Origin: Polynucleobacter meluiroseus
GTDB lineage: Bacteria > Pseudomonadota > Gammaproteobacteria > Burkholderiales > Burkholderiaceae
Length of the DNA stretch: 35,852 nucleotides
Direction of reading: 5' to 3'
Assembly: GCA_945867755.1 (NCBI GenBank)
Contig: CAMBJN010000002.1
Span: 1-35,852 of the forward strand
Position numbers and translations under genes: made by a program. Under the pieces are notes generated by a model. The model was not told the origin of the DNA and searched no databases. It saw only the letters and a list, made by a program, of their open reading frames with translations. This document shows, piece by piece, positions 22,518 through 25,505 of this stretch (the first letter of the stretch is position 1; every line of letters starts with the position of its first letter).

Positions 22518-24053
22518 ATGGCCTTTCGTGAACTTGTATTTACCGTCTCCGAAGATTTTGCTGAAGATCTTGGAGATGCCCTCATGGAATTGGGTGCACT
22601 ATCCATTTCGGTCAGTGATGCTGCTGCCGATACTGAATCTGAAAAACCCTTGTATGGGGAACCAGGTTTAACACCTGATCGACAAGCTTGGGAGCAATCT
22701 CAAGTTATTGCCCTTTTTGATGAACAAGGTTTGAGTGCGGTAGAAATTTCATTGGCTTTGACTGAAGCGGGTTTTCAGGTCAACGCCCCTTCACAAAGAA
22801 GTGTTGAGGAACAAGACTGGGTGCGTCTCACGCAATCACAGTTTGAGCCTATTCAAGTGGGTCAGCGTTTATGGGTAGTTCCATCATGGCATGACGCACC
22901 CAAAGATCCGAATGCAGTTTGTTTGGCAGTTGATCCTGGCCTGGCTTTTGGGACTGGCAGTCATCCAACTACCAAGTTGTGTATGCAATGGTTAGAAGAG
23001 CACTCTGGCTTAGCCAGCAAGTCGCTTCTAGATTATGGTTGTGGTTCAGGTATTTTGGCAATTGCGGCAAAACGTTTGGGTTGTGGTGATGCGCTTGGGG
23101 TGGACATTGATCCGCAAGCAGTCATGTCTGCCAAAGATAATGCAGAGCGTAATGAAGTGACTGTTGACTTTCGCTTACCAGAGGAAGATAGCGCCAAGAG
23201 CCGGCATGACGTGGTTGTTGCGAATATCTTGGCCAATCCTCTCCAAGTGCTTGCTCCAGCACTTTGCCAACGCATTGCACCGAATGGTCACATTGTTTTA
23301 TCAGGCATTCTCGAGCGCCAAGCGCAAGAGGTGATTGACACCTATCAACCCTGGATCAAACTTCATGTTTGGCGTGAGTGTGATGGCTGGGTGTGTCTAA
23401 CGGGTCAATTAATATCAGATGACACCAACCAAACCTCGTCGGGCATTCAAAAAAAAACGATAAAACCCAACCCGAGCTCAGCTAACTCATCAAAAAATAA
23501 GAAATCGCTCACTTCAATTGGCTGGATCAGCCTAGCTGTATTGATGGTGGTGATTGCTTTACAGCTCTTTCATCTTGGTAGGCATGTGATTGCATTGCAG
23601 CTCACCAAAACACCGGCTGCTATTCAAGAACCCTTATTTAAGGCATTTAAATCTCTAGATTCTTTACTGTGCAAACGGTTTTCTTGCCAAGATATGCCCC
23701 TAAGGGACTTTTCTGCATGGGCCATTGAGTTAGCCAATCTAAAAATTGCCGCCAATAGCCAAACTACTACCGGAGTACTAGAACTTCAAATCCGCAATAA
23801 ATTGCCACTCATGATCACCTGGCCACACGTATTGCTCACCATCACCGATGCTAACGATGCTGTAATCTCGGAAAAACTTCTTGGGCCCAAAGATTGGTTA
23901 CCAGCTGATGATTCCAAAATCATTACAGCGGGATCACAAGCGCTTCAGGAGGTCTCGTGTAACATTTTCTTGAGCTTACCCCAACAAGCTGCCGGATTTA
24001 GAGTGCGTCTGCTCTATGTTGATGACAAGGCAACAGATGGATCTTCAGAATAA
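22518..24053 (+). CDS. prmA: Ribosomal protein L11 methyltransferase fused in frame to a TM + DUF3426-like C-terminal domain
   Basis: 511 aa. Residues about 1-297 are PrmA (AVDPGLAFGTGSHPTTKLCMQWLE, LDYGCGSGILAIAAKRLG, VVVANILANPL); then a basic linker spanning A9 (23449..23457), TM SIGWISLAVLMVVIALQLF and a DUF3426-like region. Domain naming is from memory of the families. Confidence 0.88.
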   Translation: MAFRELVFTVSEDFAEDLGDALMELGALSISVSDAAADTESEKPLYGEPGLTPDRQAWEQSQVIALFDEQGLSAVEISLALTEAGFQVNAPSQRSVEEQDWVRLTQSQFEPIQVGQRLWVVPSWHDAPKDPNAVCLAVDPGLAFGTGSHPTTKLCMQWLEEHSGLASKSLLDYGCGSGILAIAAKRLGCGDALGVDIDPQAVMSAKDNAERNEVTVDFRLPEEDSAKSRHDVVVANILANPLQVLAPALCQRIAPNGHIVLSGILERQAQEVIDTYQPWIKLHVWRECDGWVCLTGQLISDDTNQTSSGIQKKTIKPNPSSANSSKNKKSLTSIGWISLAVLMVVIALQLFHLGRHVIALQLTKTPAAIQEPLFKAFKSLDSLLCKRFSCQDMPLRDFSAWAIELANLKIAANSQTTTGVLELQIRNKLPLMITWPHVLLTITDANDAVISEKLLGPKDWLPADDSKIITAGSQALQEVSCNIFLSLPQQAAGFRVRLLYVDDKATDGSSE

Positions 24054-25137: not shown

Positions 25138-25251
25138 TTAAGGACGAGAACCCGTTGGGAAAGGCCAAGCAGCAGCCGGATTTAAAACTGTCTTTGCTGA
25201 TGAAGCAGGAGCAGCTTTAGCAGCCGGCTTTTTAGCAGCAGGCTTACTTAC
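25138..25251 (-). other. -1-frame C-terminal extension of the histone H1-like gene (candidate frameshift product or sequencing-indel-displaced 3' end)
   Basis: In the -1 frame after A_AAA_AAG: VSKPAAKKPAAKAAPASSAKTVLNPAAAWPFPTGSRP then TAA (25138..25140). Same Lys/Ala composition continues uninterrupted and then enters a non-repetitive C-terminus. Confidence 0.85.
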
Positions 25252-25505
25252 TTTTTTTTTACTACTTTTTTAGCAGCTTTTTTAGCAGCAGGCTTCTTCT
25301 TAGCAGCAGGCTTCTTCTTAGCAGCTTTTTTAGCAGCAGGCTTCTTAGCAGCTACTTTTTTCTTAGCAGCAGGCCTTTTAGCAGCAGCTTTTTTAGCAGC
25401 AGGCTTCTTCTTAGCAGCTACTTTTTTCTTAGCAGCAGGCTTTTTAGCAGCAGCTTTTTTAGCAGCTGGTTTCTTTGCAGCAGGTTTTTTCTTGGCGATT
25501 GCCAT
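25248..25505 (-). CDS. Histone H1-like Lys/Ala-rich DNA-binding protein (zero-frame product)
   Basis: MAIAKKKPAAKKPAAKKAAAKK... repeats; RBS AAGGAG upstream of ATG at 25505; ends GTA AAA AAA AAG TAA. Confidence 0.85.
   Translation of the reverse strand: MAIAKKKPAAKKPAAKKAAAKKPAAKKKVAAKKKPAAKKAAAKRPAAKKKVAAKKPAAKKAAKKKPAAKKKPAAKKAAKKVVKKK
25347..25478. repeat. 66-bp direct tandem duplication inside the histone H1-like gene
   Basis: Unit beginning agcagctacttttttcttagcagcaggc(c/t)ttttagcagcagcttttttagcagc at 25347 and again at 25413; encodes the 22-residue PAAKKAAAK(K/R)PAAKKKVAAKK(K) repeat. Confidence 0.8.

Follow-up and report, generated by a model that had tools for sequence, protein, structure and literature searches.

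We analysed a 35,852-nt window (contig CAMBJN010000002.1, positions 1 to 35,852) of Polynucleobacter meluiroseus, in which the gene for the ribosomal protein methyltransferase PrmA continues without a stop into a second coding sequence. As the initial annotation had proposed, a single 511-aa open reading frame joins PrmA, a linker, a transmembrane (TM) helix, and a DUF3426 domain, and matches to Pfam and TIGR00406 together with the hydropathy profile bore this out (Table 1). The Pfam PrmA model matched residues 3 to 297 over its full length (287.5 bits versus a curated cut-off of 22), TIGR00406 scored 248.9 bits versus a curated cut-off of 183.15, and this part of the protein aligns with the Thermus thermophilus PrmA structures 1ufk and 2nxc. 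These matches place the protein in the PrmA family and predict L11 methyltransferase activity. The DUF3426 model matched residues 340 to 497 (57.4 bits versus a cut-off of 27.7). A hydrophobicity peak around residues 330 to 360, called from Kyte-Doolittle 19-residue windows above 1.6 that start at residues 329 to 342, lies behind a lysine-rich stretch. A short overlapping ORF with an ATG near 23421 (MTPTKPRRAFKKKR) looks incidental.

Table 1. Features of the prmA locus and of its histone-like neighbor, in window coordinates. Frames -1A, +1A, and +2A are those read after the loss of one A or the gain of one or two A's in the A9 run.
Feature	Coordinates	Strand	Remarks
prmA–DUF3426 fusion ORF (predicted unslipped product)	22518..24053	+	511 aa, open frame
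PrmA methyltransferase, complete (residues 1-297)	22518..23408	+	PF06325, E = 1.7e-85; TIGR00406 above cut-off
Putative slippery A9 run in linker (CAA AAA AAA ACG frame)	23449..23457	+	Exactly A9 in 130/153 congeneric loci
TAA, -1A frame	23461..23463	+	Would end a 314-aa free PrmA (...GIQKKR, stop); the +2A frame also ends here (315 aa)
TAA, +1A (= -1 ribosomal) frame	23483..23485	+	Would end a 322-aa free PrmA
Predicted TM helix behind Lys-rich linker	23511..23573	+	Kyte-Doolittle; N-in, C-out expected
DUF3426 domain match without zinc ribbon	23535..24008	+	PF11906, E = 2.2e-15
+1A-frame extension of histone-like gene	25138..25251	-	37 aa, ends in LNPAAAWPFPTGSRP and a stop; conserved in congeners
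Histone-H1-like Lys/Ala-rich gene, frame-0 short form (...KKVVKKK, stop)	25248..25505	-	
Second A9 run, immediately before the histone-like gene's frame-0 stop	25252..25260	-	

The fusion was not confined to the window. Among 60 relatives, most of those that are congeners had one open frame of about 500 aa, and a genus-wide search of 186 congeneric genomes found the in-frame fusion in the majority, including many that are single-contig. Across the order, where 299 genomes were sampled, the full-length matches among those listed came from genus members only; the match in family mates outside the genus covered only about residues 1 to 300, and no PrmA–DUF3426 fusion was seen outside the genus in this sample. 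Three congeners (G003, G015, and G025) carry separate prmA and DUF3426 genes. We conclude that the fusion is real and is the normal state in the genus. The initial annotation would have given up the fusion if close relatives all had separate genes and the A run at the junction had another length here; most congeners proved to be fused, and 130 of 153 loci have a run of precisely nine A's. Sequencing errors are common in homopolymers, and the genome behind the window is fragmented, at 80% completeness; however, the same run and frame recur in more than 120 assemblies made independently, a good number of which are single-contig. Because the in-frame fusion recurs in most of the 186 genomes, an assembly or sequencing error as its origin has next to no chance of being right, and we regard it as effectively refuted by the comparative data. 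In two loci, L150 (G017) and L151 (G023), the DUF3426 half is broken and PrmA is intact; the G017 genome is a single contig of 1.55 Mb, perhaps that of an endosymbiont.

The initial annotation had also stated that prmA is commonly followed by a separate DUF3426 gene with a zinc ribbon, and such a gene, with a PF13719 ribbon, does adjoin prmA in most outgroup genomes and most other genera. The reported lack of a CxxC segment at the junction held in every frame. We found no zinc ribbon anywhere in the window's genome with the PF13719 profile, and so rejected the idea of a ribbon concealed in a different frame or at some other site, and none above the cut-off in 25 genus members in one survey or in 7 in another. 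Since the short separate DUF3426 frames of G003, G015, and G025 also lack the ribbon, its loss is, by these profile searches, genus-wide and more than a side effect of fusing the genes; the absence noted at first stands, but the fusion event does not explain it.

What is conserved at the junction is the length of the A run. Exactly A9 was found in 130 of the 153 congeneric loci and A10 in one, so that 131 carry the coding-region run of at least nine A's expected of a slippage gene. The linker varies in length and sequence across the 153 loci; the run begins 3 to 70 nt after the PrmA core and takes any of the three codon phases (0, 1, or 2), which argues that run length, and not a peptide, is conserved. 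Genome-wide, A9 runs number 3 to 14 per genome on both strands, whereas an order-2 model of the window predicts about 91 per 2 Mb. On the PrmA tree, there were about 8 changes of the state "A9 or more". The ninth A was kept against codon usage, with AGY used for serine in 94 of 94 cases (usage about 31%) and AGR for arginine in 10 of 10 (usage about 16%). These loci were, however, chosen for A9, so the pattern is more fairly put as 117 loci that share the state and a departure from it in just one A8 and a few A7 relatives. Twenty-two of the 153 loci lack a run of at least nine A's, and most of them are fusions with a shorter run or none (those without any run being L115, L127, L129, L132, L134, L136, L139 to L141, and L146); any dual output is therefore not universal. 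A subclade in which the run has been shortened to A6 to A8 (L055, L072, L073, L082, L105, L116, and L121) mostly has a G-rich stretch after the run. The base two positions 5′ of the run (23447-23448 in the window, and its equivalents) is nearly always T, the dinucleotide being TC in 111 of 127 loci; this T changed 5 times on the tree versus a median of 40 for third bases of alanine codons in the core, independently of phase.

Stop codons in the alternative frames lie close behind the run. In the commonest arrangement, CAA AAA AAA AGT CTT AAG, one extra A brings up a stop two codons on, and a +1A stop at the second codon was present in 99 of 117 phase-1 loci versus the 34.5 that codon usage would predict for the encoded amino acids. 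The codon that forms this stop varies freely in its amino acid (L, P, F, I, V, S, or T), with a third base that is nearly always T: its third base changed 7 times on the tree, versus 20 changes at the first base, 10 at the second, and a median of 30 for third bases of leucine codons in the PrmA core. In 62% of the 127 in-frame A9/A10 fusions, each alternative frame has a stop no more than 12 nt from the run, as compared with 8.7% under synonymous resampling, 2.4% elsewhere in these same genes, and 4% in run-less linkers. Among 65 representatives with less than 85% identity, both stops were found in 36 versus 5.1 expected, a count reached in none of 500 nulls; among 8 representatives with less than 75% identity, a set with little power, 3 of 500 nulls reached the observed count. 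The excess over chance, another mark of a slippage gene, indicates that the stops beside A9 are under selection. In the window species the +1A stop comes 25 nt after the run, a looser arrangement than that of the main clade, and many members of the window clade have their tight stop in the -1A frame.

In one clade (G005, G083, and G078) the frames are exchanged. PrmA ends 9 nt after A9, and the DUF3426 part forms an ORF of about 190 codons in the +1A frame, whose dN/dS of 0.10 to 0.20 between the three species shows it to be under purifying selection. In G078 the +1A frame offers no ATG, GTG, or TTG until past the TM segment. Re-initiation or translational coupling was considered for this clade and rejected: the three species do not agree in their start codons, and G078 lacks one before the TM helix. 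Translation of this ORF would most simply need a frame change at A9. Taken together, the normal and the swapped arrangements indicate that both products are wanted.

A second A9 run lies nearby, in a histone-like gene 1.2 kb downstream of the fusion gene on the opposite strand. Wherever the motif was detected, frame 0 of this gene stops at once (AAAAAAAAAGTAAGTAAG) and the +1A frame runs on for 37 to 44 codons, ending in AAAWPFPTG(S/T)RP, in most cases with LNP before it. Outgroup genera and several other congeners, four of the latter with a run of 10 to 11 A's, encode this tail in frame as part of one ORF. This gene is likely a second programmed-slippage gene and, as an independent candidate, supports a slippage reading of the prmA site.

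We consider it probable that programmed slippage, most likely by RNA polymerase, yields both a free PrmA and a membrane-tethered PrmA–DUF3426 protein. A faithful A9 mRNA would give the 511-aa PrmA–TM–DUF3426 protein, with the methyltransferase in the cytoplasm and DUF3426 in the periplasm. RNA polymerase slipping at A9 would produce mRNAs with 8, 10, or 11 A's, on which the ribosome would stop just past the run and release a soluble, complete PrmA with a tail of 17 to 25 residues. From the window gene one would expect proteins of 511 aa without slippage, 314 aa with -1A, 322 aa with +1A, and 315 aa with +2A; all would hold the complete PrmA, and only the 511-aa form the membrane anchor and DUF3426. 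In the G005, G083, and G078 clade the roles would be exchanged, with the unslipped mRNA encoding free PrmA and +1A slippage the fusion. The earlier suggestion that PrmA would be tethered to the inner membrane thus survives in part: an anchored form is predicted, but because the A9 run with its adjacent alternative-frame stops also predicts a free pool, PrmA is probably not simply tethered. We infer slippage, its transcriptional nature, the ratio of the products, their topology, and a function for both forms from comparative sequence data. Simple slippage at A9 requires no RNA structure and depends on the RNA polymerase. RNAalifold gave no consensus structure near the run, around which local folding was weakest. 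Polymerase slippage fits best because the run is nine long whatever its phase, its ninth A has been retained, and no conserved RNA structure was found. A limited literature search found no prior link of prmA or of the genus to slippage.

Three other readings of the site were weighed against polymerase slippage. Both products could come from -1 ribosomal frameshifting on A_AAA_AAA, a heptamer of the X_XXY_YYZ type that the common phase places in frame. In favor of such a shift, it would end at the +1A stop, the best conserved of the stops, and E. coli dnaX offers a precedent (PMC5009743). However, eight A's would suffice for the heptamer in the common phase, and retention of the ninth runs counter to codon usage; exact A9 is maintained in all three phases, the RNAalifold analysis gave no conserved downstream structure, and stops have also been preserved in the -1A frame, for which -1 frameshifting has no use, with the tight stop lying in that frame across much of the window clade. 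We therefore hold ribosomal frameshifting to be fairly unlikely.

It is very unlikely that the locus is a plain fusion with an incidental A run, in which the 511-aa protein is the sole product and PrmA is wholly tethered. The frame is open in 127 A9/A10 loci and some species are fused without any run, as that reading would have it, but it leaves the conserved exact A9, the selected alternative-frame stops, and the intact DUF3426 ORF of the swapped clade unaccounted for. The homopolymer tract inside an ORF, with a frame that differs between the G006 (A10) and G005 (A9) lineages, might also suggest phase variation, with slippage in DNA replication toggling the DUF3426 part between cells. An on/off switch should leave many out-of-frame alleles, however, and the run has the in-frame length in 127 of 131 loci; the selected stops beside it also fit co-production better, so that phase variation is hardly credible here.

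If RNA polymerase slippage does operate at prmA, recoding would decide between the free and the membrane-tied state of a ribosomal-protein methyltransferase, and would link PrmA to the uncharacterized DUF3426 domain that is encoded beside prmA across many Burkholderiales. The host genus is an abundant group of freshwater bacteria, and the second A9 site nearby suggests a regular use of slippage in it. A9 slippage might even be a shared device of the genus that sets the ratios of soluble to tethered PrmA and of tailed to tail-less histone-like protein, possibly with a joint response of both to nucleotide levels or to the state of RNA polymerase, a proposal we regard as rather doubtful.

In a large proportion of bacterial genomes, selection against A/T runs shows once these reach nine nucleotides, and slippage that yields truncation has been deemed hard to recognize by comparison (PMC1088944). 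At prmA, dense sampling of the genus reveals a candidate of this type through its selected stops and its swapped-frame clade. Among the closest known systems is T. thermophilus dnaX, where transcription slips at nine A's and stops lie in both nonzero frames (PMC5009743, PMC1088944). As there, the long product is encoded in a single ORF, A9 lies late in the gene, and nearby stops would give a shorter product; in contrast, at prmA the short form would be a soluble methyltransferase and the long form membrane-anchored, and the arrangement is conserved across the genus, with one clade in swapped frame. E. coli dnaX, which uses a -1 ribosomal frameshift (PMC5009743), shares an A-rich shift site, a stop about one codon later, and a truncated second product, but the prmA run keeps to A9 whichever phase it is in, and the search for a conserved stimulatory structure gave none. 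In Citrobacter rodentium tssM, transcriptional frameshifting at A11 makes two forms that are both needed (PMC4256274). The likeness, here from sequence comparison, is poly-A slippage giving two length variants of an inner-membrane protein; however, the unslipped tssM product is the short one and slippage restores its C-terminal domain, and the short form of PrmA would lose the membrane anchor itself. As for the domains, Caulobacter ZitP consists of a zinc ribbon, a TM helix, and DUF3426 (PMC5182063). By profile match and hydropathy, the window protein likewise has a TM helix followed by DUF3426, so that a cytoplasmic domain, a TM segment, and a periplasmic DUF3426 would follow one another as in ZitP; it lacks the N-terminal CxxC ribbon (PF13719), and PrmA, unlike in ZitP, stands where that ribbon would be.
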